This document shows positions 4,803 through 52,855 of a stretch of DNA of 64,000 nt, piece after piece (the stretch's first letter is position 1; each line of letters begins with the position of its first letter). A program made the position numbers and the translations under genes. Source of the stretch: Kordia antarctica (GTDB lineage: Bacteria; Bacteroidota; Bacteroidia; Flavobacteriales; Flavobacteriaceae). The notes below the pieces were generated by a model, which searched no databases, was not told where the DNA came from, and worked only from the letters and a program-made list of their open reading frames with translations. The stretch lies in contig NZ_CP019288.1 of NCBI RefSeq assembly GCF_009901525.1, positions 1,889,501 through 1,953,500 on the forward strand, in the 5' to 3' direction.

Positions 4803-5048
4803 ATGAAAAAAAAGAATTTAAGTAAGTTGAACTTAAAGAAAAGTATTGTTTCTGAATTGAATAATTCAAATAAAATTATTGGAGGGAAAGAGAAATCAAT
4901 ACATGAGACAAATTGTAATCTATGCCCACCTACTGATTCAGATGCATGTCCATCAGCTAATAATGATTGTACACCACCACCTCAACCCTCAGAAAAGATT
5001 ACTTGTGGTATATTTTGCTCTTTAGCCGCTTGTTATTTAAACATATAA
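4803..5048 (+). CDS. GG-leader Cys-rich peptide, lanthipeptide-like precursor
   Basis: The 81-residue product has a leader starting MKKKNLSKLNLKKSIVSEL and an IIGG site at residues 25-28. This matches four other small genes in the window (26856, 27163, 52264, 52586). The predicted core has seven Cys (38, 41, 49, 56, 68, 72, 77) plus several Ser/Thr, ending in a hydrophobic stretch with three Cys. From memory, such leaders are annotated in Bacteroidota as class I lanthipeptide precursors cleaved at GG by a C39-type exporter. No synthetase or transporter adjoins it, so modification would have to be in trans. It is monocistronic and followed by a strong hairpin terminator. Confidence 0.75.
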   Translation: MKKKNLSKLNLKKSIVSELNNSNKIIGGKEKSIHETNCNLCPPTDSDACPSANNDCTPPPQPSEKITCGIFCSLAACYLNI

Positions 5049-5054
5049 AGCAAA

Positions 5055-5083
5055 GAACCTTTCAGCAAAAAACTGAAAGGTTC
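5055..5083 (+). terminator. Hairpin terminator between convergent genes
   Basis: A perfect 11-bp stem (GAACCTTTCAG / CTGAAAGGTTC) with a 7-base loop is flanked by T/A-rich runs on both sides. It can serve the peptide gene at 4803 and the convergent peptidase gene ending at 5105. Confidence 0.85.
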
Positions 5084-5104
5084 TTATAAAAATACTTTTA
5101 AATT

Positions 5105-7162
5105 TTAGTTCTTATCACTCAAGAAACTATAATTCTTAGCATAGTACAACATTTGGTTGTCAAATGCCGCTGGTTGTTCAATTGTAATCGCTATAATTTC
5201 TCCTGCATCATTTGTTTCTGGAGTTAACACAGGATTTACAAATCCACCATTAGGATTTGCCTTAAATTGGTCATTACGCTTCAATACTTCCGTATGCATT
5301 TTCTGGTCTACTTTTACTCCGTAACCTTCTACTAAAGCTCTTGCAGCTTCAAAATCTCCTTCAGATTTGATTCGTTGTGTTTCACGTAATAACTGACCAA
5401 ATAATTCACGTAATTTTACATAATCAGTAATGTTGTAATACGATTTTCCGTCACGTGTTACTTTTTCAATTACGTTATCTTTTTGTCCTTTTTCAAAAAC
5501 CCACGCAGAAACCCATTGTCTGTTTACCATGTGATCTTCTTCTACATCATCACCAATTTTTAAACGAATTAATTGTGTCATCAAACCATTTCTGATATAG
5601 CCATCATACGCAGCTTTTCCAACACCTTCAGTATCTTCAACCAAGCCAAGTTCTTTTAGTTTTGGATCCATTAAATAGTATAATCCAACTAAATCAGCTC
5701 TTCCTTCTTCCATAGTAGAAGCATAGTTTTTCAAGGTTTCTTTTGGTTGCCCAATTCCAGGATTTATCTGTCCAGAAGCATGACCAATTACTTCATGTAA
5801 AGATGTATGTAATTTATCAGCAAGCTTTCCATACTTTTTTTCTAATTCATACTCTTCATCATCATGAACAAATTCTTTTAATCTTCCAGAACCTCCATTT
5901 TGTCCATACGCATTGATAATATTTGCCAAAGAAACTGATTTAGAACCATGTTCTTGACGAATCCAATTGTTATTTGGTAAGTTTACGCCTATTGGTGTTT
6001 TCGGTGAAGCATCTCCAGCTTCTCCTGCAACATTAATAGATTTATATGTTACACCAACAACATTTTTCTTTTTATGACTATCAATTAATGGAGAGTTATC
6101 TTCAAACCATTGTGCATTATCAGATAAGACTGCCATTTTCTTAGACATGTCAACATCTTCTATTTGTATAATACTCTCGTACGAACCTCTGTATCCTTTT
6201 GGATCATTATATACTTCAATAAATCCATTGATCCAATCAATGTTTCCTTCTGTTGAAGTTGCCCAAGAAATACAATATTGATCCCACGTATCTAAACTTC
6301 CAGTTTTGTAATATTCAATTAATAAACCTAATGTTTCCCCTTGTTTTTCATTTTCGGCAACACCTTTTGCTTTTTCTAACCAATAAATAATTTTATCAAT
6401 TGCGTCTCCGTACATTCCGCCAGATTTCCATACTTTTTCAACAAGTTTTCCATCTTCACGAACTAGTTTAGAGTTCAATCCAGCTTCTACTGGTTGCCCT
6501 TCTGGACCTTTGTAAGCCGTTTTGTAAAATTCTTCTACATCAGCAGTTGTAATATCTGCTCCATAAAAGTTGACTGCTGACGCTAATACATTATCAACAC
6601 CATCTTTTTTATTTACTTTTTTAGTGTCTTTATCATTGAAAATGACGTCTAAAGCTTCTCCTTTTAATTCTGTATTTGTGGATGCTAATAAACTATCTAC
6701 AAGATACGATTTATCAAATTCAGGCTTTAACTTATCGTTTGAATTATGATGATGAATTCCGTTAGAAACCCAAACCATTTTCAAATATTCTTCAAAAGCT
6801 TTCCAATCATCCGATTCTTTATCGCCTTCATAATTTACATACACATTTTCAAGTGCTTCTCTAATCGCTAAATTATGTCGGTAATTTTGGTCCCACATAA
6901 TATCTCTCCCTGAAAGTCCAGCTTGCGTTAGGTAATAGACTAACTTTTTTTCTTTCAATGTCAACGCATCAAATCCAGGTATTTCATATCGTAGAATATC
7001 TACATCACCAAATTCTTCTACTTTGAACTCCATTCTTCCATCTTCAGCTACTTCAATAAATTGAGCTTCATAAGGATCTGTTTTTACCTCTTCTTCTTTT
7101 TGTGCACAAGAAAATAGCATTCCTGCGACTAATGCTACTCCTACAATTGATTTTAATTTCAT
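5105..7162 (-). CDS. Dipeptidyl-peptidase III family zinc peptidase (M49), lipoprotein
   Basis: Removes dipeptides from the N-terminus of peptides. The 685-residue protein carries the M49 zinc signature HEVIGH (residues 456-461, with catalytic E457) and the second motif EEGRAD (485-490, matching EECRAE, with E486 as the probable third zinc ligand). The Cys of the eukaryotic motif is Gly here. The N-terminus is a lipoprotein signal (hydrophobic run, then FSCAQ with Cys19), so it is probably envelope-anchored rather than cytosolic. The ATG at 7162 gives the full signal peptide. Automatic annotations sometimes mislabel this family. A -7 box lies about 90 bp upstream. Confidence 0.9.
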   Translation of the reverse strand: MKLKSIVGVALVAGMLFSCAQKEEEVKTDPYEAQFIEVAEDGRMEFKVEEFGDVDILRYEIPGFDALTLKEKKLVYYLTQAGLSGRDIMWDQNYRHNLAIREALENVYVNYEGDKESDDWKAFEEYLKMVWVSNGIHHHNSNDKLKPEFDKSYLVDSLLASTNTELKGEALDVIFNDKDTKKVNKKDGVDNVLASAVNFYGADITTADVEEFYKTAYKGPEGQPVEAGLNSKLVREDGKLVEKVWKSGGMYGDAIDKIIYWLEKAKGVAENEKQGETLGLLIEYYKTGSLDTWDQYCISWATSTEGNIDWINGFIEVYNDPKGYRGSYESIIQIEDVDMSKKMAVLSDNAQWFEDNSPLIDSHKKKNVVGVTYKSINVAGEAGDASPKTPIGVNLPNNNWIRQEHGSKSVSLANIINAYGQNGGSGRLKEFVHDDEEYELEKKYGKLADKLHTSLHEVIGHASGQINPGIGQPKETLKNYASTMEEGRADLVGLYYLMDPKLKELGLVEDTEGVGKAAYDGYIRNGLMTQLIRLKIGDDVEEDHMVNRQWVSAWVFEKGQKDNVIEKVTRDGKSYYNITDYVKLRELFGQLLRETQRIKSEGDFEAARALVEGYGVKVDQKMHTEVLKRNDQFKANPNGGFVNPVLTPETNDAGEIIAITIEQPAAFDNQMLYYAKNYSFLSDKN

Positions 7163-7251
7163 CTGTTAGTTATTATCTGTTTCTTATTTGGTTTTTGAAA
7201 ATATGAAAAAGAAAGCGTCTATTTTGTATAAAATCGCTATTCTTTATGCTA

Positions 7252-7259
7252 CAAATGTA
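7252..7259 (-). promoter_or_regulatory. -7 box of candidate promoter for the M49 peptidase
   Basis: On the minus strand this reads TACATTTG, an exact TAnnTTTG match, about 90 bp upstream of the 7162 start. No clear TTTG is present at the -33 position. Confidence 0.35.
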
Positions 7260-7320
7260 ATCAATTCAATAAAACATTAAAAATTTGTACATTAGCATTA
7301 CTAACTAATATCCGAATAAT

Positions 7321-16262: not shown

Positions 16263-16802
16263 TTAACCACAGACTTTACATTGTTTTTCATCTTTAACCT
16301 CGCCAATTAAAAATCCTTTGTCGTTGAGTTTATAATCGCAGCAATCCATATATCCTTGAACAATGAGTTTGCGTCCGCGTTGTATTTGCGATTTCACAGT
16401 TGCCAATGGCAAGTTTAATTGAGAAGCAATTTCGGCTTGTTTTATTCCTTTGATATCCGATAACAATAACGGATTTCTATATTTTTTCGGTAGATTTTTG
16501 ATAATTCCTGGTAAGCAATCTTTTTCGGAATGTGTATAGGTTTCATCACTTGCAATTGTTTCTTCTTTTTCTAAAGGAATTTCTTTGTCAGATTTTCGAA
16601 AATAATCTAATACCGTATTTCTGCTCACGCTCAACAACCACGATTTCACTTTGCGTTCATCTTTAATTGTAGTGAGTTTTGTATGCACTTTGATGAATAC
16701 TTCTTGTACCAAATCGTCTGTGATTTGAGTATCTTTTACCTTACTCATAATCAAGCGTTTTACATCTTCTGCATAGGTTTCCCAAACTTCCGTAGTTGTC
16801 AT
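16263..16802 (-). CDS. ECF-type RNA polymerase sigma factor (SigZ-like) with Cys-rich tail
   Basis: From the ATG at 16802 the product has about 179 residues. Region 2 reads ITDDLVQEVFIKVHTKL and KVKSWLLSVSRNTVLDYFRK. Region 4 has the HTH GIKQAEIASQLNLPLATVKSQI. The C-terminal tail is DCCDYKL...KQCKVCG, with four Cys that could bind metal or sense redox state. This resembles SigZ-type sigma factors. No anti-sigma gene adjoins it. A metallothionein-like peptide is encoded just upstream in the same direction. I infer a metal- or thiol-responsive regulator. An upstream in-frame start at 16832 is also possible. Confidence 0.9.
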   Translation of the reverse strand: MTTTEVWETYAEDVKRLIMSKVKDTQITDDLVQEVFIKVHTKLTTIKDERKVKSWLLSVSRNTVLDYFRKSDKEIPLEKEETIASDETYTHSEKDCLPGIIKNLPKKYRNPLLLSDIKGIKQAEIASQLNLPLATVKSQIQRGRKLIVQGYMDCCDYKLNDKGFLIGEVKDEKQCKVCG

Positions 16803-16870: not shown

Positions 16871-16975
16871 TTAACAATTACAGTTTGTACACGTACAATT
16901 TTCGCATGTACACTGATTGCATTCTCCGTTTTTACAGTTGGTACAATTGCATGTACAGTTTTTATGATTTTCCAT
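16871..16975 (-). CDS. 34-residue Cys-rich metallothionein-like peptide
   Basis: ATG at 16975 opens a 34-codon frame with 11 Cys arranged almost entirely as CxC and CxxC (NCTCNCTNC ... CNQCTCENCTCTNC), followed by a TAA. Cys makes up a third of the residues, as in metallothioneins, and no aromatic residue occurs. It lies 68 bp upstream of the sigma-factor gene on the same strand. The likely role is metal (Cu, Zn or Cd) binding or a thiol sensor for the Cys-tailed sigma factor. This is inference from composition and context. It is too short to be found by ordinary ORF thresholds. Confidence 0.7.
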   Translation of the reverse strand: MENHKNCTCNCTNCKNGECNQCTCENCTCTNCNC

Positions 16976-17300
16976 CGTGTTTAATTTTTTAAAGTTCATA
17001 TAGTAGACGAAAAATGATTGAAAAAGATGCATTCTTTATTAAAATTCATGTTTTTTTATTTTAATTTGATGTAGTTAGTTGTGATTTACATCAAAAAATC
17101 TCATTAAAAGTAACTATTGGACTCATCCTTAATTGTAAGTATTTTAGCTATGTATTGAATCGTCACAGACTCAACATAAAATACTTATATTCAATTAATT
17201 AAAATGTTTTCAAACTAATTAATTCTTCTCAATACGGAAACCCGTAAGGAAATGTAAAATATATTTTATATAATTGTCCTATCAAAAATATAGGAATTTA
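16976..17300. other. Divergent AT-rich intergenic region
   Basis: About 325 bp between the metallothionein-like gene and the VKOR-fusion gene. It is AT-rich, with no ORF and no strong hairpin. It should hold both divergent promoters, but I could not fix their boxes. Confidence 0.6.
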
Positions 17301-18929
17301 ATGACAGTTATAGAGAAGCTCTTTTTGTATTTACGGAAGCAGCACATTTATATAGACAAGAAAGAGTTTACTTTTCAGTTTGAATCTCATCCTGAATATC
17401 CATCGCTCTTGGCTGTTAGTGATACATTAAATTTCTTTAATATATCAAATGGCGCATTGCACGTAGATGCTGTAGATTTTAAGCTGTTACCAAAAACATT
17501 TTTTACAAAATTACAAGAAACCAATACAGACACATTAACGCTTGTAGAAACCAAACAGTCTGATAATCAATATCGTATATATCAAGGTTCGAAAGTAAAA
17601 ACCGTATCTAGAGATTCTCTTTTGCAAAAGTGGAAAGGTATTGTTTTTCTAATAGAAAATTCTGAGGAAACCCGTACACATTCAACCAAAATTAAAGAAA
17701 AGCATATTCTTCTTCTACTTTCATTGCTCTCCTTCACATTTTTACTTCAATATAGTTTCAAAAATTTTGCTCAGCTATCTTTTTTAATGTTTCCAATTTT
17801 AGGAATTTTACTTTCGTTAGCAGCTTCAAAAAAAGTATTCAATTTTAATAATTCATTCTTAAATCAGTTTTGCAATGGAAGTGAAACGCGTAGTTGTGAC
17901 ACTGTTCTTGATTCTTCTCAATGGAAGATTTTTCAAAAAATAAACCTCAGCGATCTTAGTATCGCATTTTTTATAGCTCAATTTTTCATGTTCTTTATTT
18001 CAGAAGCTACGCAGAGTTTGACGTATTATTTTGAGATCCAGAAAATAGTGCTTTTAACGACTTTTCCAATAGTATTTTTATCCGTTTATTATCAAAAATT
18101 TAGTATCAAAAAATGGTGTCCAATTTGTGTATCCATTGCTGGAATAATTATTATTGAAGCCTTGTTTGTCTACGTAAATTACGGAACTACTTTTTTACTT
18201 TTTGATTTTTATCAATTCAATCGATATGTATTTTTCTCGCTTCTTAGTTTACTTTCTTGGTATGTTGTTAAAGAACAATTTATAATAAGAAATCAATTAA
18301 AAAGTGAACTTATTCAAGTCAATAGATTTAAACGAGATTATACAATTTTCAAAACCGTTTTAACTTCTAAAAACGCGTATACAATTCCTAAAACTGCAAT
18401 TAGTTTAGGAAATGCAAATGCCGAACTCAAACTCATCTTAATTACAAGTCCTTTTTGTGGTTATTGTGAAGAACCTTTTCGTATGCTTCTACGTTTACTT
18501 GAGCAATATAAAGATCGGTTATGTGTTGAACTTGTGTATAATATCAACTTAGAAAAAATAGATGTAGGTGCTAAATTAATGTTGCAAAATATGCTGTATA
18601 TACAGCAAGAGTTTGGCAATCAAAAATATGTAGAAGCCTTAAATTATTGGTATGAAGTAAAAGATATTTCGCTATGGCTTAAAAAATATAAATTCAAATT
18701 TGACACAAAAACTATTGATAAAACATTACTAACTCAACGTTCATGGTGTGTTGCAAACAAGTTGACATTTACGCCATGTCTTTTCATCAACGAATTTCAA
18801 TTCCCTAAACAATATTCCCTTAATGACCTTCCTTTCTTCATTGAAGATGCACTAGAAGATTTTGCTAATAACCCAGCGATAAGCCGAAAAGCTGTAAACA
18901 GAGTAGGCACTATAATCAACTCAATTTAA
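17301..18929 (+). CDS. C39-like / VKOR / thioredoxin-like fusion (disulfide-forming membrane protein)
   Basis: From the ATG at 17301 the product has 542 residues. Residues about 1-130 resemble the inactive C39-peptidase-like head common in Bacteroidota (SHPEYPSLLAVSDTLNFF) and lack a catalytic Cys. Residues 135-320 form a VKOR domain with about five helices, loop Cys 191 and 199, and the CPIC active site at 273-276. The C-terminal thioredoxin/DsbA-like domain has CGYC at 386-389. Such fusions oxidise thiols and pass electrons to quinone. A Cys-bearing peptide gene follows 10 bp downstream and is the obvious candidate substrate. A TTG at 17274 would add nine residues. Confidence 0.9.
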   Translation: MTVIEKLFLYLRKQHIYIDKKEFTFQFESHPEYPSLLAVSDTLNFFNISNGALHVDAVDFKLLPKTFFTKLQETNTDTLTLVETKQSDNQYRIYQGSKVKTVSRDSLLQKWKGIVFLIENSEETRTHSTKIKEKHILLLLSLLSFTFLLQYSFKNFAQLSFLMFPILGILLSLAASKKVFNFNNSFLNQFCNGSETRSCDTVLDSSQWKIFQKINLSDLSIAFFIAQFFMFFISEATQSLTYYFEIQKIVLLTTFPIVFLSVYYQKFSIKKWCPICVSIAGIIIIEALFVYVNYGTTFLLFDFYQFNRYVFFSLLSLLSWYVVKEQFIIRNQLKSELIQVNRFKRDYTIFKTVLTSKNAYTIPKTAISLGNANAELKLILITSPFCGYCEEPFRMLLRLLEQYKDRLCVELVYNINLEKIDVGAKLMLQNMLYIQQEFGNQKYVEALNYWYEVKDISLWLKKYKFKFDTKTIDKTLLTQRSWCVANKLTFTPCLFINEFQFPKQYSLNDLPFFIEDALEDFANNPAISRKAVNRVGTIINSI

Positions 18930-18939
18930 TTATTATTTT

Positions 18940-19155
18940 ATGAAAACAATTAATTTAAAAAACACGCAACAAATTAGCAGGAGTGAAATGAGAGAAATCA
19001 TTGCTGGATTTGGAAATGCTCCTTCTCTGATGGACGAAACCGCTACTGTCACATGTAATGATAACACAGAACATACGATTTCGAGTTGTGATGAAATGGA
19101 GGTGAAATGTGCTACACGTGGAGGAGCAAAAATTTGTTCTGGTGGCGGAAATTGA
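18940..19155 (+). CDS. Small four-Cys peptide with leader-like N-terminus
   Basis: The 71-residue product begins MKTINLKNTQQISRSEMREIIAG, like the GG-type leader with an S-R-x-E-M core seen in Bacteroidota peptides, although here the last Gly pair is A-G-F-G. The tail contains four Cys (VTC, SSC, VKC, KIC), enough for two disulfides, and ends in Gly-rich GGGN. It lies 10 bp after the VKOR/thioredoxin fusion and is almost certainly co-transcribed, so I infer it is exported, cleaved at the Gly site and oxidised. No antimicrobial or signalling function can be assigned. Confidence 0.75.
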   Translation: MKTINLKNTQQISRSEMREIIAGFGNAPSLMDETATVTCNDNTEHTISSCDEMEVKCATRGGAKICSGGGN

Positions 19156-19498: not shown

Positions 19499-21130
19499 AT
19501 GTCAAAAAAGCTCTTATCCATAGCTCCAATTGTTATCATTATTCCTATTATATGTATAACAATGTTTATTTTGAGTTCTTCAAAAAATCATGAAGAAAAA
19601 GATTCACAAATTATAATCGAAGAAAAAATATCTGACCCTGAATTAACTTTTGGTAAGCCTATAAAAACCAATAATATTGTAGTTATAGGTAAATCAGATG
19701 ATCCAGGAGTTTTTAAACGTCCAAATTTTATAAACGACACGTATCTTTTCGGAAGACCACATAAAGATTTGGAAAAGAATATTCAAAACGATTCAATTAC
19801 TTTTATCCTTAAAAAAATAGATAAACCGTTACTTATGGAATTTTCTCCTAGTGGCGATAAAAAATATTTCTCTACTATTATATATATTTCTCCTAATGAT
19901 ACAGTTCTATTTGAGGTTAAAAATAATAAGTTGATATTTACTGGAAAAAATGCTACACAAAATAATTTGTATACAAAATTGGAAGCAGAAACACTTGAAT
20001 ATGGCAAAACACCTTATGAAGACAACTTGCTTTCTTATAAAGAAAAGATAAAAGCTGTTTATGAAGATAAGAAACAATTTTTCAATAATTATATTTCTAA
20101 AAATAAAGTTTCTAAAGAGTTTATTTCCGCATTTGAGAAGCTTTTAAAATATGAATATTATGATAATTTGGCAAGCCCTAGAAATGTTATGGTAATTTCA
20201 AAAAATGGCGATTTTTATGTAAATGATTACAACGCATTACCTACTTTGATTGAAAAAGAATACCTAAACAGCGAAATTCCATTTGACAGTGATGCATATT
20301 TTGACGGTCTTTCTGTTAAAGATTTTCAAGACATCGAAGCAATGCGAAATACGCACTTTTTTAAAAATAGTATTAGTGTATTAGTTCAGCATCACTTTAC
20401 AAAACATGATGCTCCTTATTATTCAGAAGAAAGATTTAAAGCTGAAATAGATTTTACAGAAAAAAATTTTAAAGGTAAAATTAGAGACTATATCATTGGA
20501 AGAATGATTTGGGATTACTATAATAAAGGCTTTGCTTTTGGTTCACAAAATATAAACTTTATGGTTAATGTAATAGATGAATATATGGCCTCAGTTGAAG
20601 GCAAAGAAACACACATTACTGCCATGCAAGAAATCAAAAACGACATTCTAACCTACGATTTTGAAATGTCTGAATCTGCTCTGAATTCAAAAATGATCAA
20701 TCATGTTGGCGATACAATTACGTTGCGTGACATTTTTAATCGTTCCAAAAAACGTATCAAAGTAGTTGATTTTTGGGCAAGTTGGTGTCCGCCATGCATT
20801 AAACAAATTCAAGAAAGCAAACCTTTTAAAGATCGCCTTTCGGTAGAAAATAATGTAGAATGGATTTATCTTTCTATTGATACTGACCGTGAAAAATGGT
20901 TAGAAAAAGGAAAACAACTCGATAATTTTTTGAATTTTAGAAATTCATATGTACTCGTAAAAGGGAAAAAATCGTCATTAGCGAGAGCACTTCAAGTGCA
21001 TCAAATTCCTAGATATGTAATCTTTGATAAAAATCATAAAGTGATTGTAAACAGCGCACCAAGTCCGTCCGATGAAGAAGTTTTTGAGCGAATTATTGAT
21101 GATGCACAATCGCCAAAACCTATTCGGTAG
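19499..21130 (+). CDS. Membrane-anchored TlpA-like thioredoxin protein
   Basis: The 543-residue protein has an N-terminal hydrophobic anchor (residues 8-27). A long central region of unknown fold contains a TlpA-associated beta-rich DUF. The C-terminal thioredoxin/AhpC-TSA domain has [13 protein letters not shown] near residue 430, and its CPPC active site resembles reducing TlpA/ResA proteins. It probably acts in the periplasm as a thiol-disulfide reductase. It lies 343 bp after the oxidase-peptide pair on the same strand, so oxidation and reduction or isomerisation of the peptide may be encoded side by side. Its end overlaps the convergent symporter gene by 11 bp. Confidence 0.85.
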
Positions 21131-25226: not shown

Positions 25227-25329
25227 TGTTAAAATTTAGACTTAAACAAATGTTAAATAAGGTTTTACCGTAATGAACTCGCTAATGTTTTGTTTAATTT
25301 AATGCTTATTAACCAAAAAAAAATATACT

Positions 25330-25521
25330 ATGTTAAAGTCAATTTTAAATTTAGAAGGAGTCAAATCATTAAAAAAATCTGAGCAATCTTCAATTAAAGG
25401 AAGTAATGGAAGATGTAATGTTTTTCTGTGTACTCCCGAAAGTGAAGGATGCCCTTGTTATGACAATCCTAATTCTCCAGATGGTCGTGGTTGTTGTATG
25501 AATGGTGAATGTACAGACTAA
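25330..25521 (+). CDS. Cys-rich peptide with K-x-E-Q leader
   Basis: The 63-residue product has the leader MLKSILNLEGVKSLKKSEQS followed by SIKGSNG. This matches the Bacteroidota bacteriocin-type leader pattern L-x-G-V-K-x-L-x-K-x-E-Q-x-x-I-x-G, but not the KK-leader group in this window. The core has seven Cys (29, 34, 41, 43, 55, 56, 61) with Asn, Pro, Gly and Asp, which suggests disulfides or metal binding. No processing gene adjoins it. An ISAs1 element begins a few bases after the stop codon and may have replaced the original downstream sequence. Confidence 0.7.
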   Translation: MLKSILNLEGVKSLKKSEQSSIKGSNGRCNVFLCTPESEGCPCYDNPNSPDGRGCCMNGECTD

Positions 25522-25526
25522 TAATT

Positions 25527-26810
25527 TAGCACTATTGCACACTCTTAGGATTGCCAGGGCAGAATCATACTTTTTAAGACAATATAATCATTTATTTGCC
25601 TGATTATTAATTGTTTAAGTCATCAATTATTCGTATATTATACTGATAATCAATTACTTAACTCAATGAAACCATCTGATAACTTAAAAGACATTTTTGG
25701 GCAAATACAAGACCACAGAAGCCATATAAACAAGCTTCATAATTTAGTAGATATCCTTCTTATTGGTATAATTGCAGTGATTTCTGGGGCAGAAACTTGG
25801 GAACAAATGGCTGGGTTTGCCAAATCAAAAGAACCTTTTTTAAAGAAATTCTTAGAATTACCTAACGGTATTCCTTCGAAAGTAACTATCAATAGAGTCT
25901 TTTCAGCTATTGATAGTGAACAATTTGAATCTTGTTTTATTGATTGGGTCAATTCAATTGCAAATTTAAGTAAAGGTCAAATAATTGCGATTGATGGTAA
26001 AACGATACGTGGCGCAAAGTCTCATGGTAAAAAATCGCCAATTCACATGGTTAGTGCTTGGGCTTGCGAAAACAATCTTGTTCTAGGTCAAGTTAAAACA
26101 GCTGAAAAGTCAAACGAAATTACTGCGATCCCAGAATTACTGAACATCCTTAGTATTGCAGGAAATACTATTACAATAGATGCTATGGGAACTCAAAAAG
26201 AAATTGCAAAAAAAATAATTGAACTAGATGCTGATTATATTTTAGCAGTTAAAGCAAATCAACCGCAGTTATTAGAACATATTGAAGATGAGTTTCGGTT
26301 TTCCAAACAACTAGAAACATACACTAAACATGATTTAGATCATGGGCGTATTGAAACTAGAACATGTAGCGTAATTACTGATTTTAAGTTTATTGAACAG
26401 GACAATCAATGGAAAAATTTACAAAGTATTATAAAAATAGATAGCATTCGTGAATTTAAAAATAGTGATAAAGCGACAGAAAAAGCGACACGATATTATA
26501 TTTCAAGTTTACGAAATGATGCTAGTGAATTTCAATCTAAAATACGCTCGCATTGGGCGGTAGAAAATAAATTACATTGGACTTTAGATGTAGCTTTCTC
26601 TGAAGATGCTTCTAGAAAAAGAGCAGGAAATGCTGCTCAAAATTATTCTATTCTGCTTAAAATTGCTTTAAATCTATTGAAAAATGAAACCTCTAAAAAG
26701 CTATCTATGAAAAGCAAAAGACTTGAAGCTGGATGGAATGAAGACTATTTACTCAGAATATTAAATTTAAAAGTATGATTCTGCCCTGTTAGGATTGCGC
26801 AATAGTGCTA
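25527..26810 (+). mobile_element. ISAs1-family insertion sequence
   Basis: The element is about 1.28 kb with imperfect terminal inverted repeats: TAGCACTATTGCACA on the left and TAGCACTATTGCGCA on the reverse of the right end, each followed inward by CAGGGCAGAATCATA. It carries one intact transposase gene. I see no convincing target duplication. It lies between small peptide genes. Confidence 0.9.
25666..26778 (+). CDS. ISAs1-family transposase
   Basis: The 370-residue DDE transposase is intact. The N-terminal HRSHINKLHNLVDILLIGI-type segment of the family is followed by the first acidic motif IIAIDGKTIRGAKS and by SPIHMVSAWA. The second acidic motif is TITIDAMGTQKEIA, then YILAVKANQP, and the C-terminal motif is HWAVENKLHWTLDVAFSEDAS with the third acidic residue. 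Length matches the family. The element could still be active if both ends are functional. Confidence 0.95.
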   Translation: MKPSDNLKDIFGQIQDHRSHINKLHNLVDILLIGIIAVISGAETWEQMAGFAKSKEPFLKKFLELPNGIPSKVTINRVFSAIDSEQFESCFIDWVNSIANLSKGQIIAIDGKTIRGAKSHGKKSPIHMVSAWACENNLVLGQVKTAEKSNEITAIPELLNILSIAGNTITIDAMGTQKEIAKKIIELDADYILAVKANQPQLLEHIEDEFRFSKQLETYTKHDLDHGRIETRTCSVITDFKFIEQDNQWKNLQSIIKIDSIREFKNSDKATEKATRYYISSLRNDASEFQSKIRSHWAVENKLHWTLDVAFSEDASRKRAGNAAQNYSILLKIALNLLKNETSKKLSMKSKRLEAGWNEDYLLRILNLKV

Positions 26811-26855: not shown

Positions 26856-27008
26856 TCACATCGTATCTTCTGCGATACAATCACATTGTGAAGGTCCGCA
26901 TAAACAACTTGTTTCTGAACGATTTCCACCTTTTATTTTTTCGACATGATCGAATTTAGAAATGATACTTTTTCTGAATGCTAAATTTTTAATTGCTCTT
27001 TTTTTCAT
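26856..27008 (-). CDS. GG-leader Cys-rich peptide, lanthipeptide-like precursor
   Basis: From the ATG at 27008 there are 50 residues: leader MKKRAIKNLAFRKSIISKFD, IKGG at residues 25-28, and a short core with Cys 35, 37, 42 and 44 and Ser/Thr 31, 33, 34 and 40. The leader is a near match to those at 4803 and 27163. An in-frame start at 27089 would place 27 non-leader residues in front, so I reject it. Cys and Ser/Thr in the core would permit thioether rings. No modification gene adjoins it. It is separated from the upstream peptide gene by a hairpin terminator, so each has its own promoter. Confidence 0.72.
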   Translation of the reverse strand: MKKRAIKNLAFRKSIISKFDHVEKIKGGNRSETSCLCGPSQCDCIAEDTM

Positions 27009-27162: not shown

Positions 27163-27351
27163 TTAACAGTAAGGATGCGTCACACAACCTTCTGTAAAAT
27201 CTTCCATACAACGAATACAGAAACTAATTCCTGTCGGCTCCAAACATGTAGGATTATGTGTTGGTCCGCCACCTTTAATTGCGGGTAGATTTGTCAGTTT
27301 TGATACTGTTTTTTTGCTTAGTAATAAGCTTTTGATTTTTTGTTTTTTCAT
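27163..27351 (-). CDS. GG-leader Cys-rich peptide, lanthipeptide-like precursor
   Basis: From the ATG at 27351 there are 62 residues: leader MKKQKIKSLLLSKKTVSKLT, IKGG at residues 25-28, and a core with Cys 36, 45, 48, 56 and 62 and several Thr/Ser (PTCLEPTGISFCIRC). The leader fits the shared group pattern. The longer frame from 27414 adds 21 residues with no leader character. This gene and the one at 26856 are tandem paralogues in leader but unrelated in core, a pattern typical of RiPP precursor families that diversify the core. Confidence 0.72.
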   Translation of the reverse strand: MKKQKIKSLLLSKKTVSKLTNLPAIKGGGPTHNPTCLEPTGISFCIRCMEDFTEGCVTHPYC

Positions 27352-33670: not shown

Positions 33671-34629
33671 TTGAGTTACACACTTAGTATCCGTTTAATG
33701 TTTTTATGATAAATAGGTTTTGCAATAACCATTCTTTCTATAGTTTTATGAAAAATAGTTTCTTTAAATTGAGAACGATTAATTCTAAAACAAAACTCAT
33801 CAAAGTAAGCTTGGACATGCCATTTACTAACATGAGTTGGGATGGCTCTTAACCAAGATTTCAATTGCATGATTACAATATGCAATTCCTTAAAATTCTT
33901 ACCATTGTTACTAAATTTTTGTTCAATTTTATAATCCTTTTTTAAAGGTGAATATCCTCTCCATTTATCGGTCACTATTTGTGCCGTTGTACTTATGTGT
34001 TCTTCAAATATTGGTGTTAAAGATTTGGCTGAGTAATCATCAATAGACCTTACATATACTCGCTTAATTTGATGTTTCTTGCTCAGTTCTACTGCTATTA
34101 CTGCCTTTTTCTTTTTAGAATCATAGCTTCTACCTTGTTTACCTTCTTCTTTTCCACCTACCGTAAATTCATCTACATGAACTAATTCTGATAAAGGATA
34201 TTGTTGGCTACTCTTCATTGTTTTTCTAACTTTTTGCATAAAAAACCAAGCGGTACCTTGTCGAATATTGAAGCGCTTACCCATCTGAATACTTGATACA
34301 CTTTTACTACTTGTACTCATTTCAAATACTACACAAAATGCTTTTTGTAATCCAAACTTCACCTTATGAAATAACGTATTTGCTGTAGCACTTTCCACAT
34401 GATTACAACTATAACAATGATACCTATATCCAGATTTTTCACAACCTTTTGTATGACCACATTTCATACATTTAAAACCATCTTGCCATTTTATTTTAGC
34501 CAAATAAGCCTTACAGGCTTCATCATCTGGCAATTCTTTTATAAAGCTCAGTATATTTTGTCCTTTAAATGCTTCCATAAACTCCGTTTTTATTGATAAC
34601 AAGATACGGAAGTTAAATGACTAACTCAA
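33671..34629 (-). mobile_element. IS1595-type insertion sequence, 959 bp
   Basis: Terminal inverted repeats begin TTGAGTTA at both ends. An 8-bp direct repeat TAAATTTA flanks it (33663-33670 and 34630-34637). The paralogous repeat at 40278-40404 shows the uninterrupted site (TAAACTTA, 40336-40343), which confirms the boundaries. One intact transposase gene fills the element. Confidence 0.92.
33676..34578 (-). CDS. IS1595-family transposase
   Basis: From the ATG at 34578 the product has 300 residues. The N-terminal zinc ribbon is CMKCGHTKGCEKSGYRYHCY with a closing CNH. The DDE-type ISXO2-like domain has the first Asp in LVHVDEFTVGGKEEGKQGRS, then IVTDKWRGYSPL, and HIVIMQLKSWLRAIPTHVSKWHVQAYFDEFCFRIN-type C-terminal sequence read in segments. 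Length matches the family. The frame is intact, so it may be active. The in-frame upstream start at 34602 is a TTG. Confidence 0.93.
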   Translation of the reverse strand: MEAFKGQNILSFIKELPDDEACKAYLAKIKWQDGFKCMKCGHTKGCEKSGYRYHCYSCNHVESATANTLFHKVKFGLQKAFCVVFEMSTSSKSVSSIQMGKRFNIRQGTAWFFMQKVRKTMKSSQQYPLSELVHVDEFTVGGKEEGKQGRSYDSKKKKAVIAVELSKKHQIKRVYVRSIDDYSAKSLTPIFEEHISTTAQIVTDKWRGYSPLKKDYKIEQKFSNNGKNFKELHIVIMQLKSWLRAIPTHVSKWHVQAYFDEFCFRINRSQFKETIFHKTIERMVIAKPIYHKNIKRILSV

Positions 34630-34934: not shown

Positions 34935-36497
34935 ATGCAAGGCAAAAAAATCTATCAAGAAAAACTATTCAACAATTTTCAACTAAGTGATCGAATTCCA
35001 AAAGAAAATTTTTATCGTCGTTTATCTTCTGAGTTAGATTTAGATTATTTGTATGAACTTACCAAAGTCTATTACGGAAGTAGCGGACAAAAAAGCATTG
35101 ATCCTGTTGTGTTCTTTAAACTATGTTTGGTTGGTTATTTAGAAAATATTATTAGTGATCGTAAGTTGATTCAGCATTGTAGTCTACGCTTGGATATTTT
35201 GTATTTTCTGGGGTATGATATTGATGAAGAACTTCCATGGCATAGTACGATAAGTAGAACGCGACAGTTATTCCCTGAATCAATATTTGAAGAAGTTTTT
35301 ACACGAGTTTTCATGCTTTGTGTAGACAAAGGAATGGTAAGCGGTCACACACAGGCAATCGATTCCGCACCAATAAAAGCGAATGCTTCGATGGATAGCT
35401 TGGAGTTAAAAGTTCCTGAAGAAGAATTGGACGCACATTTATCCAAAGTTCGGGTTCAGAGTTACCGAGATCGTCAAGTTCAAAACAAGGCAAGTAAAGA
35501 ACAACAGGTTATTACTGCTAACGATCAGGAACTCAAAGCTATCACATCAAGGAACAAGAAATGGGCAAAGGATCAAGATCAACGAACAGGCGCAGGCAAT
35601 AAAGGAAGTCGGTATACCAGTAACAAAACGCATTACAGTCCCACAGATCCTGATGCTCGCATTAGTGTAAAACCTGGCAAAGCAAGAAAGCTCAATTACA
35701 TGAGTCAACTCAGTGTAGACACCGCACATCATGTGATTAGCGATATTAAGGCATATCATGCTGATAAGAGAGACAATCAGTATTTGCAAGATATAACTAT
35801 TAGAACTCAAAGACGTTTGCGAAAAGGAGGATTATTATGGGAAAATCTAGTGGCAGATACTGGGTATAGTAGCGGCGAGAACTATGCCTTTTTAGAATCT
35901 CAAGGTTTAAAAAGTTACATTCCACCGCATGGTACTTACAAAGGTGGTCCAGATGATTTTATATATGACAAAGAATCGGATCATTATGTGTGTCCACAAG
36001 GAAAGATTATTCCTTTTAAAAAGGTATTTTATGAAGGAGTAAATAACAATAAAAAGAAAGAATATCGTGCCTCAAAAAAAGTATGCATCGGTTGTCCACT
36101 AAGAAGCACTTGTTTAAAGAAGAGTCAAGAAAAGCGTATTACGATAACCTATTATGTGGAAGAATATGAACGAAACATTGCTAGAGTCCATAGCAATCAA
36201 GGACGTTATATGAAGAGAAAACGTCAAAGCACAGTAGAACCAGTATTTGGTACGCTAAAGGAATATATGGGACTCAGAAAAGTTAATACTTTGGGAATAA
36301 AGCAAGCAAATAAAGTGATGCATATGTCAGCGATTGCTTATAATCTGAAGAAATACCTAAAGTTCGTTACAAAAATGGCAAAAAGTGCAGCCAAAATAGG
36401 CAATGCTATTTTTTCAGAACTAAAAGCAACTCAAAACTTCATAGCAACTATTTTAAGCCATGTAAATTATTCAAATGTATACTTACTAAAAACCTAA
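34935..36497 (+). CDS. IS1182-family transposase
   Basis: The 520-residue protein has the family N-terminal DUF772 segment (YYGSSGQKSIDPVVFFKLCL ... LRLDILYFLGYDIDEELPWH) and the first Asp in THTQAIDSAP-like sequence (here GHTQAIDSAPIKANAS). The second Asp is in LVADTGYSSGENY. A Cys-rich insert follows (VCIGCPLRSTCL), then STVEPVFGTLKEYMGLRK with the Glu. It is intact and full length. Confidence 0.95.
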   Translation: MQGKKIYQEKLFNNFQLSDRIPKENFYRRLSSELDLDYLYELTKVYYGSSGQKSIDPVVFFKLCLVGYLENIISDRKLIQHCSLRLDILYFLGYDIDEELPWHSTISRTRQLFPESIFEEVFTRVFMLCVDKGMVSGHTQAIDSAPIKANASMDSLELKVPEEELDAHLSKVRVQSYRDRQVQNKASKEQQVITANDQELKAITSRNKKWAKDQDQRTGAGNKGSRYTSNKTHYSPTDPDARISVKPGKARKLNYMSQLSVDTAHHVISDIKAYHADKRDNQYLQDITIRTQRRLRKGGLLWENLVADTGYSSGENYAFLESQGLKSYIPPHGTYKGGPDDFIYDKESDHYVCPQGKIIPFKKVFYEGVNNNKKKEYRASKKVCIGCPLRSTCLKKSQEKRITITYYVEEYERNIARVHSNQGRYMKRKRQSTVEPVFGTLKEYMGLRKVNTLGIKQANKVMHMSAIAYNLKKYLKFVTKMAKSAAKIGNAIFSELKATQNFIATILSHVNYSNVYLLKT

Positions 36498-46644: not shown

Positions 46645-47853
46645 ATGCATATTAACGCTGAAAAGTCAAAAGAAAACAAAGCTATTCCGAGTCAAGTTGC
46701 ACAACTAAAAACGACGAATGATGCTGTTTTTCATTTTGAAGATAATCGTCCGCAGGCAACTATTCAGCGAAAAATACAAAAAATAAGTGAAGCTTTTTCT
46801 GCGAAACATATACTTCCAATTCAGAGAAAAGCAACTAATACAGGCTTACCTGATACTCTTAAATCGGGAATAGAACAGCTTTCTGGCTACGCAATGGACG
46901 ATGTTAAAGTCCATTATAATTCTGATAAACCCGCACAATTACAAGCACATGCTTTTGCACAAGGAACTAATATTCATGTAGCTTCTGGACAAGAGAAACA
47001 TTTACCACACGAAGCTTGGCATGTAGTACAACAAAAACAAGGAAGAGTAAAACCTACTGTGCAGTTGAAAGGAAATGTAAATATTAATACAGATGTTAGT
47101 TTAGAAAAGGAAGCTGATATTATGGGTGCTAAAGCTGTAACGCAACGCATGCCTTTAAATCATTCAAATAAAGACATAACCAATAGTGCTTCTTTGATCT
47201 CAAACCACGATACTGTAGTTCAAGCTGTTTTAGATCCAACTGTTGCTACAGGAGACCAAGATTTTACTTTTGGTTTGTTACATGGAACTTATAGACCTGC
47301 TACAAATTTAGCAGATATGCATGTTAACGCAGCGACTTTGGCTAATCCACATTTAACAGCAGCGCATATGTTAGCAGCAATGAATGATGTACAACAAGCA
47401 ATGATTGCAAATCATGGAGTTACAGGCAATGTAGGCACGTTAGATTGGCGACCAACTGGCGCAGCGGTTGTAAAATTAGTTATTGAATTATTAGGAGAAG
47501 CATTAGGAGGTTTTTGGAATAAACGCTTAGCTCGTCTCAAAAAATTTAAAAGAAAAAAATTAGAAACTCCACCAGTTGTCAGAAATGAAGATGCACTTTC
47601 TGCTGATGTATTATCTGAACATAAATCATCTTTAAAATCTCTGCAAGGTGAAAATAAGGTAAGTATTAAACCTATCATTGCTAGGTCAACACTAGCAGAG
47701 TTTAACCAAGACATGTTAGAAAATTCACCCGCAGGAAAAGCAAGGCTTACTGCTTATGAACAACTTATAGATGCTGGACTACCTACAAGTCTTAGAATAG
47801 AGATACATCATAATCAGATACCAGCTATTATTGGTGTCTTAAATTCCATGTAA
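46645..47853 (+). CDS. eCIS-core (DUF4157) domain protein
   Basis: The 402-residue protein has an N-terminal Lys/Gln-rich tail with an FEDNRPQATIQRK motif (residues about 33-48). It is followed by a DUF4157 domain: LPDTLKSGIEQLSGYAMDDV, then VHYNSDKPAQLQAHAFAQG, and the metal site LPHEAWHVVQQKQGRV (HEAWH = HExxH). The C-terminal ~220 residues match nothing I know and could be an effector payload. DUF4157 proteins accompany extracellular contractile injection systems or other toxin systems. No sheath or baseplate genes are in the window. A peptidoglycan-targeting gene follows 163 bp downstream on the same strand. Confidence 0.85.
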   Translation: MHINAEKSKENKAIPSQVAQLKTTNDAVFHFEDNRPQATIQRKIQKISEAFSAKHILPIQRKATNTGLPDTLKSGIEQLSGYAMDDVKVHYNSDKPAQLQAHAFAQGTNIHVASGQEKHLPHEAWHVVQQKQGRVKPTVQLKGNVNINTDVSLEKEADIMGAKAVTQRMPLNHSNKDITNSASLISNHDTVVQAVLDPTVATGDQDFTFGLLHGTYRPATNLADMHVNAATLANPHLTAAHMLAAMNDVQQAMIANHGVTGNVGTLDWRPTGAAVVKLVIELLGEALGGFWNKRLARLKKFKRKKLETPPVVRNEDALSADVLSEHKSSLKSLQGENKVSIKPIIARSTLAEFNQDMLENSPAGKARLTAYEQLIDAGLPTSLRIEIHHNQIPAIIGVLNSM

Positions 47854-48016
47854 ATTATTGATTTATTATTTAAAAACGAATAGTACATCTTTCTGTAACT
47901 TAAGAGAAAATTAATTGGGGAAATTAAAAAATAGAATTAATTGAAAATCAAGTGTTTTTACCCTTTTACACTATTTGTATTTTTTCTAATTTGCTTAAAA
48001 TAAAAAGTTTACACTC

Positions 48017-49099
48017 ATGGAATGTTCAAATCTACTTGAATCAGCACTCAAAAAAGGAAATATTAGCGCATCTTTATTTAAAGGATCATCAGACAAGGAA
48101 TTAGTCACCGATTTGCAACGAACTCTGTTTGAGTTGGGTTTTCGAAAGGAACTAAAATGGGACAATTACCAAGCCGATGGCGATTACGGAAAAGCTACAA
48201 CAGCCGCCGTTGCCGCTTTTGCTAAGAAAAATAATAGTACTACTGATGGGAAATCTGTTTCAACTGCTTTGGCAAAATTGATTATTGAAAGACACGATTT
48301 GCTTCCTGAAATGTATGTTTTATGGAGAATTCATACTTCGGATCTACGAACAAAAAAATATATTTCTAAAGGAACACGCACAAGTATTTCTGCGATACAA
48401 GTGTTTTTAAATACGATTGGTTATGGCGAACAACTTAATTTTAAAAAGTTTGGCGCAGATGGTTTGTATGGAAATAGTACCAGAAATGCTGTAATTAAAT
48501 ATGCAAAAGACAATGCTATTGAGTGTGATGGCGATTTACTTTCACGCCCAGTTGTTGATCTTTTCTTAAGAGACATTAATCCATATTACGGAAATAAATG
48601 GAGTGACTTGGCGGCGCAAAATTTACCAAGTAAAAAATCGCCACTTGTATTGTTTGAAGGTTCTCGTTTTTCTGGAAAACCTTGTAGAGCTGATGTTGAA
48701 TTTATACCTGCGCTCGAAAAAATAAATGCATATGCAAAACAAGCAGACGTTTTTATACACGTTACAAGTTCGTTTAGAACTACCACAAATGTTAGAGGTG
48801 CTATTGTAAAACCTGCAACGTTTTCTAATCATTTGGCTGGACACGGAATTGATATGAATTTGCGCTACGGAAACGGAAAATGGGCAAATTCTAAAGTAAT
48901 GGCAAAATATCCTAATGTTCCTGAACCTGTAAAACAGTTTTTAAGTTCAATTATTAACGATCCAAAATTACGTTGGGGCGGAAAGTTTAACACCATAGAT
49001 CCTGTGCATATTGACGATCATTTGAATAAAGATCGTACTATTTGGAAAAAAAGATATGAAGCTATGCAAAAAGCAGTGCAATTGGGGAAGTTTAATTGA
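48017..49099 (+). CDS. Peptidoglycan-binding and M15-like peptidase protein
   Basis: The 360-residue protein has no signal peptide. Two PG_binding_1-type repeats come first (LQRTLFELGFRKELKWDNYQ with ADGDYGKATTAAV; then IQVFLNTIGYGEQLNF with GADGLYGNSTRNAV). The C-terminal domain resembles M15/VanY or phage-endolysin DD-/LD-carboxypeptidases (VTSSFRTT; SNHLAGHGIDMNLR; LRWGGKF with DPVHIDD). The SxHxxGxGxD and HID motifs supply the zinc ligands. Without a signal it could be a cytosolic payload released by lysis or delivered by an injection system. That idea rests on the eCIS-core neighbour. Confidence 0.82.
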   Translation: MECSNLLESALKKGNISASLFKGSSDKELVTDLQRTLFELGFRKELKWDNYQADGDYGKATTAAVAAFAKKNNSTTDGKSVSTALAKLIIERHDLLPEMYVLWRIHTSDLRTKKYISKGTRTSISAIQVFLNTIGYGEQLNFKKFGADGLYGNSTRNAVIKYAKDNAIECDGDLLSRPVVDLFLRDINPYYGNKWSDLAAQNLPSKKSPLVLFEGSRFSGKPCRADVEFIPALEKINAYAKQADVFIHVTSSFRTTTNVRGAIVKPATFSNHLAGHGIDMNLRYGNGKWANSKVMAKYPNVPEPVKQFLSSIINDPKLRWGGKFNTIDPVHIDDHLNKDRTIWKKRYEAMQKAVQLGKFN

Positions 49100-50960: not shown

Positions 50961-51002
50961 CGACAACTGACAACTGACAACTGACAACTGACAACTGACA
51001 AC
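50961..51002. repeat. 7-bp tandem repeat GACAACT
   Basis: About six units between prfA and pyrF. It ends a few bases before the prfA stop codon. Confidence 0.85.
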
Positions 51003-51006
51003 AAAT

Positions 51007-52083
51007 TTACATAATCTCACTAGCATCTTTCAGCTTTTCTGTATTTTCAACGAGCATTAATTCGTCCAATATTTTTTGAATGTCGCCATTCATTATATTT
51101 GATAAATCGTACAATGTTAATCCAATTCTGTGATCTGTAACACGTCCTTGCGGATAGTTATAGGTTCTAATTTTTGCACTTCTGTCTCCAGAAGAAACCA
51201 TACTTTTACGACGAACAGAATCTGCAGCTAGCTTTTTCTCTAATTCCTTATCATACAATCGAGAACGCAATACTTTTAATGCTTTTTCTAAGTTTTTGTG
51301 TGATGATTTTTGATCTTGACAACTTACCACCAATCCAGATGGCGCGTGATGCAAACGAATTGCAGAATACGTTGTGTTTACCGATTGTCCTCCAGGTCCA
51401 GTAGAAGTTGTTCGCTCTATACGAACTTCTTTCATATCTAATTCTACATCAAATTCTTCTGCTTCTGGTAATACTATTACCGTTGCAGCACTTGTATGCA
51501 CACGACCTTGCGTTTCTGTTTGTGGTACACGTTGTACACGATGCACGCCAGCTTCAAACTTCATGGTTCCGTATACATCTTCTCCTGAAACTTCAAGTAT
51601 CATTTCTTTAAATCCGCCCGAAGTTCCTTCACTATAATCTACAATACTTACGTTCCAACCGCGACCTTCACAGTATTTGGTATACATACGATGCAAATCG
51701 CCTGCAAAAATACTTGCTTCATCTCCACCGGCTCCTGCACGGAGTTCCATTACGATATTTTTACTATCTTCAGGATCTTTTGGAATTAGTAAGAATTTAA
51801 TTTCATCTTCTAATATTGGCAATGCTTCTTTGGCTTCGTCCAATTGCATTTTTGCCATTTCTGTCATTTCGGCATCACTACCATCTGAAATGATTTCTTC
51901 TGCTTCAGCAATATTGTCCAATATCTCTTTATATATCTCGCGTTTTTCTACGAGTGCTTTAAGATCTTTGTATTCTTTGCTGAGTTGTACGTATCTTTTT
52001 TGATCAGCAATAATGTCTGGCTGAATGATTAAATCATTTACCTCATCAAAACGCTGTTTTACTATTTGTAACTTATCTAACAT
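51007..52083 (-). CDS. prfA: Peptide chain release factor 1
   Basis: Terminates translation at UAA and UAG. The 358-residue protein is the usual length and shows the acidic N-terminal coiled domain, [35 protein letters not shown] and VHTSAATV. The catalytic GGQ loop is [19 protein letters not shown], which contacts the peptidyl-transferase centre, and [10 protein letters not shown] follows. The Q is expected to be methylated by PrmC. It heads a probable prfA-pyrF-BtuF-like transcription unit. Confidence 0.96.
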
Positions 52084-52263
52084 GGAACTTTTTCTTTTCA
52101 GGTATGCAAATTTACAATTTTTATTGATTGTTTCAGATTTTCTGTTTTATATCTAAAATACTTTCTGTGAAAATAGTTTTTCTTTGACTTCTATTCAATG
52201 CATCTCGCATTTTAATTGTATTTTTAATACCAACTTAAATTAATTAACCATAAACTTATTCAC

Positions 52264-52425
52264 ATGAAAAAAAAAGGTATCAATTCGTTAAAGCTTAACA
52301 AAAGAAGTATTTCATCATTAAAAGAAATTGTAAAAGGAGGACTTCGTGCGCCACTTGAAAGCGATTGTTCTTCTTACGGAAACGGAGAATGCGATGAAAC
52401 ATATTGTAACTGTGAAACTAATTAA
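52264..52425 (+). CDS. GG-leader Cys-rich peptide, lanthipeptide-like precursor (53 aa)
   Basis: ATG at 52264 opens a 53-codon frame with leader MKKKGINSLKLNKRSISSLK, VKGG at residues 23-26, and a core with Cys 35, 43, 48 and 50 and Ser/Thr 33, 36, 37, 46 and 52. It is followed by a hairpin terminator at 52461-52489. It fits the leader pattern of the genes at 4803, 26856, 27163 and 52586 and is the shortest of the group after the one at 26856. It stands next to the repeat-core peptide gene at 52586 but has its own terminator, so separate promoters are likely. Confidence 0.72.
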   Translation: MKKKGINSLKLNKRSISSLKEIVKGGLRAPLESDCSSYGNGECDETYCNCETN

Positions 52426-52460
52426 TACTAGTTCACAATTCACATAAATTATTTTTACAA

Positions 52461-52489
52461 CTGCATCATTTTCAACTGAAAAGATGCAG
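52461..52489 (+). terminator. Terminator of the 52264 peptide gene
   Basis: CTGCATC / GATGCAG stem with a nested TTTTCA/TGAAAA inner pairing, followed by TTTTCTTTTT. Confidence 0.8.
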
Positions 52490-52585
52490 TTTTCTTTTTA
52501 TACACATTACTTTTATTACGGGGAAGCCTTATTTTTTTTAGATGTGTTTTTACTATTTTTACTTTTTAACCAAAACTTATTTATC

Positions 52586-52855
52586 ATGAAAAAAAAGAAA
52601 GTAACTCTAGGAAAATTAGGATTAAAAAAGTCAAAAGTAGCTACGTTTGAATCTGATAGCGTTACTGGTGGATATCAATCATGGACTGGAACTGCTGAAC
52701 CATGCTTCTCAGAATACAATTGCGGAACTAATAACTGTGGAAGCAATAATTGCGGAACTAACAATTGTGGAACTAACAATTGCGGAACTAATAATTGTGG
52801 AACTAACAATTGTAATTCAGATTCAGTGTGTCCTCCAGGAGTTCACTGTTACTAA
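52586..52855 (+). CDS. GG-leader peptide with C-G-T-N-N repeat core
   Basis: From the ATG at 52586 there are 89 residues: leader MKKKKVTLGKLGLKKSKVAT, VTGG at residues 26-29, then six perfect-spaced pentapeptides CG(T/S)NN at residues 46-75 and three more Cys (76, 82, 88). Each unit has one Cys and one Thr or Ser, so a regular set of thioether rings or a metal-binding ladder is possible. The DNA is a 15-bp tandem repeat (52721-52810). A longer frame from 52484 lacks leader features. It is followed by a hairpin terminator. No modifying enzyme adjoins it. Confidence 0.75.
   Translation: MKKKKVTLGKLGLKKSKVATFESDSVTGGYQSWTGTAEPCFSEYNCGTNNCGSNNCGTNNCGTNNCGTNNCGTNNCNSDSVCPPGVHCY
52721..52810 (+). 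repeat. 15-bp tandem repeat encoding CG(T/S)NN
   Basis: Six units of TG(C/T)GGAACTAA(C/T)AA(C/T) type. The varied third positions show that the amino-acid pattern, not just DNA slippage, has been kept. Confidence 0.9.

Follow-up and report, generated by a model that had tools for sequence, protein, structure and literature searches.

Five scattered double-glycine peptide genes of Kordia antarctica are probably part of a genome-wide class I lanthipeptide system with a single enzyme hub

Lanthipeptide systems in which one synthetase acts on many scattered precursors, each with a conserved leader ending in a double glycine (GG) and a variable core, have been described as prochlorosins and synechococsins, whose class II LanM enzymes ProcM and SyncM have 29 and 79 substrates, respectively, with Nif11-type leaders (PMC10783134). 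The class I lanthipeptides of Bacteroidetes carry an LxLxKx5L leader with a GG end and are encoded with class I enzymes, including split LanBs, and a C39 exporter in the cluster (NF038153; Walker et al., 2020, PMC7268733, a survey within seven genes of LanC), and the class I LanABC system ChmABC of Chryseobacterium, one cluster with its own precursor, gave full dehydration in E. coli when its own GluRS and tRNA-Glu were supplied (PMC9993889). Here we analyze a window (the whole stretch of DNA under study) of 64,000 nucleotides from the single-contig, 5,500,985-base genome of Kordia antarctica (NZ_CP019288.1, positions 1,889,501 to 1,953,500 of the forward strand), in which an earlier note, made from the sequence alone, had pointed to five lanthipeptide-like precursor genes. 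We consider it likely that these five genes are part of a genome-wide, single-hub class I lanthipeptide system with at least 139 precursors, so that one machine would probably give rise to a large natural library of ring-shaped peptides. In how it works, the system resembles the prochlorosins without belonging to them: it has a LanB pair and a LanC in place of LanM, another leader (the five precursors gave no Pfam or NCBIfam match to a Nif11-type leader at E<=1) and at least 139 precursors, and its parts are those of known class I systems. It differs from the Bacteroidetes class I lanthipeptides described so far in that about 60 kb or more separates 138 of its 139 precursors from the enzymes.

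The genus itself has received attention. A LanB/LanC/LanA cluster is known from Kordia algicida (Marsh et al., 2010, PMC3091789), Kordia has been named a genus rich in ribosomally synthesized and post-translationally modified peptides (RiPPs) in work that sought enzymes within 10 genes and counted as many as 176 precursors of RiPPs in one Bacteroidota genome (PMC11118758), a lanthipeptide is listed among nine clusters of K. antarctica (PMC7477175), and a proteusin-like Kordia cluster has been depicted (PMC10734526). The K. algicida cluster and the RiPP-rich Kordia accounts share the genus, the hub enzymes and the abundance of RiPPs with our system but give, in their accessible parts, no link from orphan precursors to a hub, no count of a shared leader and no promoter element. 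A literature search over main texts of largely open-access papers returned no report tying 100 or more orphan precursors to one LanB/LanC set. The leader type and the RiPP richness of Kordia are already published; what is new lies in the scale, in the class and in the promoter element that precursors share.

The five genes lie where the earlier note had placed them, with lengths in the range that it gave. Precursor 1 (4803..5048, plus strand) encodes 81 amino acids (aa) with GG at 27-28 and has orthologues in 4/10 congeners. Precursors 2 (26856..27008, 50 aa) and 3 (27163..27351, 62 aa) are both on the minus strand with GG at 27-28, and reach leader-profile E values of 5.0e-9 and 9.6e-8, each being itself a row of that profile. 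Precursor 4 (52264..52425, plus strand, 53 aa, GG at 25-26) belongs to a six-sequence orthologue group and precursor 5 (52586..52855, plus strand, 89 aa, GG at 28-29) to a twelve-sequence one, the middle of its core consisting of NNCGT-like repeats. All five are translated open reading frames (ORFs) flanked by larger ORFs, and translation bore out the claimed MKK start and GG at residues 25-29 in 5/5. By eye, the exact LxLxKx5L motif is present in three of the five, and a Phe replaces one Leu in those at 26856 and 52586. When the five are aligned, the invariant columns are confined to the leader, except for one Cys column.

Far more such leaders exist in the genome, as the earlier note had predicted for a whole-genome profile search. 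A profile built from 34 leaders gave at least 141 matches at E<=5 with the best 150 of 252 candidates scored, 118 of them at E<=0.001 (up to 34 being the profile's own rows); we kept 139 as precursors, dropping two (rows 137 and 140) that did not read as such and retaining several weak ones with unclear starts (e.g. rows 100 and 134). Because only 150 of the 252 candidates were scored, 139 is a lower bound. The NCBIfam class I lanthipeptide leader model NF038153 (lant_leader_L1a) gave 71 matches genome-wide at E<=1, 20 over its cut-off. The 141 matches form 86 places when those less than 3 kb apart are merged, and the 139 precursors are spread evenly over the strands (69 plus, 70 minus), with 71 no longer than 60 aa. 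Their leader reads roughly MKKk..KLxLxKxxIS.L...I.GG, with a plain GG in 128. Cys accounts for 599 of 4969 core residues vs 4 of 3760 leader residues, and 138 of the 139 cores, including all five of the window, contain both Cys and Ser/Thr. Over 2500 sampled pairs, mean identity was 0.48 for leaders, 0.27 for cores and 0.26 for shuffled cores, which puts core similarity at the level of shuffled sequence.

The enzymes are encoded far away, at a single place. The whole genome has one match to PF04738 (LanB N-terminal, glutamylation) and one to PF05147 (LanC-like), both at a hub at about 3.734-3.746 Mb, ~1.8 Mb from the window, together with an adjacent C39-ABC gene; the one distant LanB/LanC plus C39 locus that had been predicted was thus found. 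More leaders and an enzyme set, whose joint absence the earlier note had named as the outcome to count against it, are both present. The hub reads, in order, C39-ABC (736 aa), HlyD, a short precursor-like ORF (outside the 141), an AraC/TPR regulator, one counted precursor with an unclear start, the LanB elimination domain (301 aa), the LanB glutamylation domain (751 aa), LanC (405 aa), a TPR protein and an extracytoplasmic function (ECF) sigma factor. The LanB is thus split, the elimination domain (PF14028/TIGR03891) forming a separate protein. It aligns with 9g04, a thiopeptide-type bacteriocin biosynthesis protein (177 bits), and with NisB (4wd9), and in the alignments of the LanC with 8byk and further LanC-like proteins its WCYG, CHG and SHG stretches are in register; a C-gap-CH zinc triad is named in PMC10352776. 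The only LanC-like match being this free 405-aa LanC adjoining LanB, the genome has no class II LanM, which a LanC-like profile search would also catch. The LanB N-terminal, LanC-like and C39 matches of the genome all lie outside the window, so the claimed absence of LanB/LanC, LanM and C39 from the 64 kb stands; the claimed absence of radical-SAM genes stands for the 30 window ORFs scanned with Pfam (none at E<=1e-8), among 64 window ORFs of at least 100 aa. Just one of the 139 precursors is within 20 kb of the hub, and the nearest other is still ~60 kb off (with the hub end set 1 kb short of the sigma gene).

We propose that the split LanB pair of the hub would bind the leader and dehydrate core Ser/Thr with glutamyl-tRNA, that the single LanC would couple the dehydrated residues to Cys, and that the adjacent C39-ABC/HlyD exporter would cleave after GG and secrete the ring peptide.

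Two further C39 matches are present in the genome, a weak one in a 519-aa protein beside a member of a second peptide family (see below) and a strong one at 2.73 Mb. The latter locus was considered as the maker of the peptides and rejected: it is a YhhB/FxsB-like radical-SAM cluster, and no leader-profile match is at its place among those listed. This cluster (L038:6140-10629) encodes a YhhB/FxsB-like radical-SAM maturase, a protein with a weak HExxH-type hydroxylase match (20.9 vs a cut-off of 40 bits) and a C39-ABC exporter. At least one peptide-modifying radical-SAM cluster thus exists in the genome, and the core of the precursor at 52586 scores 27.9 bits against CefA (NF038108), below the cut-off of 30, both of which would fit a scheme in which other maturases modify some of the precursors (a CefB-like radical-SAM enzyme acting on the 52586 core, for example), which would have only the leader and the exporter in common with the rest; the lack of listed leaders at the radical-SAM cluster argues against this scheme, which we judge very improbable. 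Near the LanB hub, a separate group of genes (L036:8977-11470) comprises a small ORF that is helix-turn-helix-like by eye, a reverse transcriptase of 284 aa, whose best NCBIfam match is the retron St85 type, below cut-off, and an AAA ATPase; these may form a defence unit.

If the leader directs peptides to LanB/LanC, it should go with LanB from genome to genome. We scored the leader profile, LanB and C39 in 149 genomes (our own and relatives, with the best 56 candidates per large genome) and found that the profile matches 17/25 LanB-positive genomes and, at E<=0.001, 0/124 LanB-negative ones. C39 is present in all 25 LanB genomes and in 25 more without LanB, and the profile matches 0/25 of the latter; among C39 genera, the profile occurs in 6/10 with LanB vs 0/24 without (Fisher P among C39 genomes 2e-7 by genome and 2e-4 by genus, the surveyed relatives not being independent of one another). 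With the NCBIfam leader model at E<=0.01 the figures are 19/25 LanB-positive vs 2/124 LanB-negative genomes. Each of the 11 Kordia genomes has a single LanB match and no fewer than 56 leader matches. In genome G005, where more were scored, all 150 scored of 366 candidates matched at E<=0.0013. C39 lies within ~12 kb of LanB in our genome and in 10/10 congeners. When we searched 21 named LanB loci (nine from Kordia, others from Lacinutrix, Leptobacterium, Aquimarina, Psychroserpens and a Flavobacteriaceae bacterium) with a profile of all 139 leaders, leader-type ORFs were around LanB in 20 (best E 3e-6 or lower each), a short Aminicenantes contig being the exception. By genome, the leader follows LanB, not C39 alone.

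These results bear on a different view of the leader, namely that it is a mere C39 export tag, that most orphan peptides are left unmodified, GG-processed and disulfide-bonded like bacteroidetocins, and that LanB/LanC act on hub-local precursors only. Bacteroidales GG peptides such as bacteroidetocins share the GG leader and C39 but have no LanB and are described as class II bacteriocins, and GG leaders accompany C39 exporters in Bacteroidales whether the peptides are modified or not (PMC10352776). The GG and C39 features of unmodified bacteriocins are present in our genome, alongside LanB/LanC. A leader match near C39 in a genome with no LanB match (G114) speaks for this view, as do a VKOR-domain protein in the window and the second Cys-rich GG family, which has the same promoter element as some precursors and one member beside a C39-like protein. 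It is countered by the absence of the leader profile from all 25 genomes that have C39 and lack LanB, by the 20/21 LanB loci with leader-type ORFs and by the directional order of Ser/Thr and Cys described next, and we regard it as unlikely.

A lanthipeptide ring closes a Cys onto an upstream Ser or Thr, which predicts Ser/Thr on the N-terminal side of Cys. In 134 nonredundant cores, with Cys fixed and the remaining residues shuffled, Ser/Thr were above expectation at positions -4, -5 and -6 relative to Cys (z 3.3, 5.3 and 4.7) and at +2 (z 7.4), and below it at +1 (z -4.3), with an asymmetry between the N-side and the C-side of z 7.4. No other residue class exceeded z 1.1 toward the N-side, and A, P, I/V/L and Q leaned the opposite way (z -2.2 to -2.8). 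A distinct upstream Ser/Thr was available for 569 of 581 Cys, where 527 were expected. Class I modification of the cores is consistent with this order.

We compared the presence of precursors at two sites in congeners, and selection in three groups. Two to four leader-type ORFs occur at the prfA site in 10/10 congeners, and the adenine-deaminase site of precursor 1 has leader-type ORFs in 4/10 and the neighbouring M49 gene in 10/10. Three orthologue groups are under purifying selection: pooled dN/dS, for which the pairs were not independent and had dS close to 1 or higher, was 0.07 in the core and 0.17 in the leader for the 52264 group (6 sequences), 0.19 and 0.24 for the 4803 group (5 sequences), and 0.19 and 0.11 for the 52586 group (12 sequences). 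With values of 0.07-0.24, the cores differ among paralogues yet are kept within these three groups. In the 52586 orthologues (including L171-L180), both core ends (QSWTGTxEPC and SVCPxGVxCY) are conserved, and the Cys-repeat units between vary in number and kind. New members may arise by copying of the start region and leader onto a new core, and a core once fixed would then be held by selection.

Translation signals are strong as well. A is at -3 in 118/139 precursors vs 6/20 large window ORFs and at -12 in 127/139 vs 13/20; A at -3 favours translation in Flavobacterium johnsoniae (PMC6847099). A motif search first pointed to a palindromic element, TACGG-N5-CCGTA, present with at most two mismatches in 33/139 precursor upstream regions vs 2.9 in shuffles, and in a scan of gaps from 2 to 8 only gap 5 stood out. 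In 27 of these the element begins 60-90 nt before the ATG, and relative to it the T, A, T and T of a TAnnTT box, which we take to be the Bacteroidetes -7 element, are at +37, +38, +41 and +42 in 26, 27, 27 and 26 of the 27. Over whole 250-bp upstream regions TAnnTTTG was not enriched (24 vs 26.7 in shuffles), the box being visible only with sequences aligned on the palindrome. Within 421 kb of fetched DNA we counted 35 element sites with at most one mismatch: 21 fall in the 9.9 kb that the -110 to -40 regions of precursors make up, and of the 14 elsewhere, six are 68-74 nt before second-family peptides, seven have no such peptide after them and the last is truncated where its stretch ends. In the window, the element occurs with one mismatch at 52517..52531 (plus strand), 69 nt ahead of the precursor 5 start codon and at the same place before its congener orthologues, and at 25258..25272 (plus strand), 72 nt before a second-family GG peptide.

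An RNA hairpin was rejected as the function of the palindrome, the middle stem position being mostly uncompensated (CG 11, TG 5, CT 4, AG 4 and three others, of 27). Because of this, and because it is upstream of a promoter-like box, a DNA site is likelier, and we predict that the palindrome, which stands at a fixed distance from that box, is operator-like; about a fifth of the precursors (27/139) share it. A hub regulator, the ECF sigma factor or the AraC-type protein, was rejected as its reader, no site with at most one mismatch being listed in the hub stretches outside precursor upstream regions. In the congener LanB loci, the element is absent from the hub-local precursors. We lean, though not strongly, towards a model in which one class I LanB pair and LanC accept more than 100 unrelated cores by the leader alone, a larger set than the 79 substrates of SyncM, and in which part of the system is a regulon under a factor that binds TACGG-N5-CCGTA near -33 and also controls the second, probably disulfide-type, GG family.

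Selection and expression signals also bear on whether the genes encode anything at all. We rejected chance ORFs running from MKK to GG in view of the 0/124 LanB-negative genomes with a profile match, the selection and the start context. That the family is decaying and silent, without a product, would suit the variable presence at one site (4/10 congeners) and a Kordia metaproteome paper whose main text does not mention lanthipeptides, bacteriocins or RiPPs (PMC12172471); set against the low dN/dS of three groups, the strong start context, the fixed spacing of the element from a promoter-like box and the at least 56 leader matches in each of 10 congeners, we give this idea hardly any credence.

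Several observations weigh against the assignment of the five genes to a single-hub class I system. NF038153 matches four of the five, all below its cut-off (best 17.6 vs 22 bits), and the precursor at 26856 has no NCBIfam match; with all five below cut-off, each taken singly is weak. A plain GG is missing from 11 of the 139 precursors, Cys is absent from one core and occurs just once in six, and 17 cores have a nearest core at least 60% identical, some over short alignments. Eight of the 25 LanB genomes have no profile match, and since the profile was built from Kordia, its absence elsewhere partly reflects its specificity. Two LanB-negative genomes, G065 (weak) and G114 (C25:5229-5833, close to a C39 piece), have NCBIfam leader matches, so the leader can occur without LanB, and the hub-local leaders of Kordia are partly of another sub-type (MKSLKLKKVKIS...). 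The Ser/Thr test takes shuffled cores as its reference and not matched GG peptides that stay unmodified. At -6, A shows no enrichment (59/139 precursors vs 10/20 control ORFs), the element loses its excess as mismatches are allowed (59 vs 31.6 in shuffles with three, 118 vs 121 with four), and at congener loci it accompanies 13 of 49 leader-bearing ORFs, each belonging to the 52586 type. Finally, thioether rings on the orphan products are predicted from sequence, and that one LanB/LanC would accept all orphan cores is assumed.

Should this LanB/LanC pair process such cores, it would parallel ProcM within class I while having more natural substrates, which would make it of use in peptide engineering and in studying how a single dehydratase copes with cores that have no relation to one another. 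Genome mining confined to the vicinity of LanC would overlook almost every precursor described here. The exported products may have an antagonistic or signalling role, and the promoter element that genes of the system share offers a way to approach when algae-associated marine bacteria deploy such a library, and for what reason.

The second family adds a sixth Cys-rich GG-type gene to the window, missed by the earlier note. It lies at 25330..25521 on the plus strand and encodes 63 aa with the leader MLKSILNLEGVKSLKKSEQSSIKGS, has no NCBIfam match and shares the element with the precursors while its leader is distinct (family pattern MLKNI..NLEGV..L.K.EQ..I.GG). A profile of six such peptides found nine members in the fetched DNA, seven of them with the element (<=2 mismatches). 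At L039:7209-9106, a member with the element adjoins the 519-aa weak C39 match, which by eye resembles the VKOR protein of the window. Behind the latter, a VKOR-domain protein by Pfam, comes a short ORF (18940-19155) that contains Cys and has an AGFG-like leader end, the two spanning 17274-19155, and a thioredoxin-like protein lies nearby at 19499-21130. The VKOR family can serve disulfide formation, and these genes are perhaps a disulfide-type secreted-peptide unit.

Among the other genes of the window, Pfam identified transposase genes at 25666-26778, 33676-34602 and 34935-36497, the first between the second-family peptide and the pair of precursors 2 and 3. A 53-aa ORF at 16871-17032, with a Cys-dense tail and metallothionein-like by eye, adjoins an ORF at 16263-16802 that by eye is sigma-factor-like, and at 46645-49099 an eCIS-core-domain protein is followed by a peptidoglycan-binding-domain protein.

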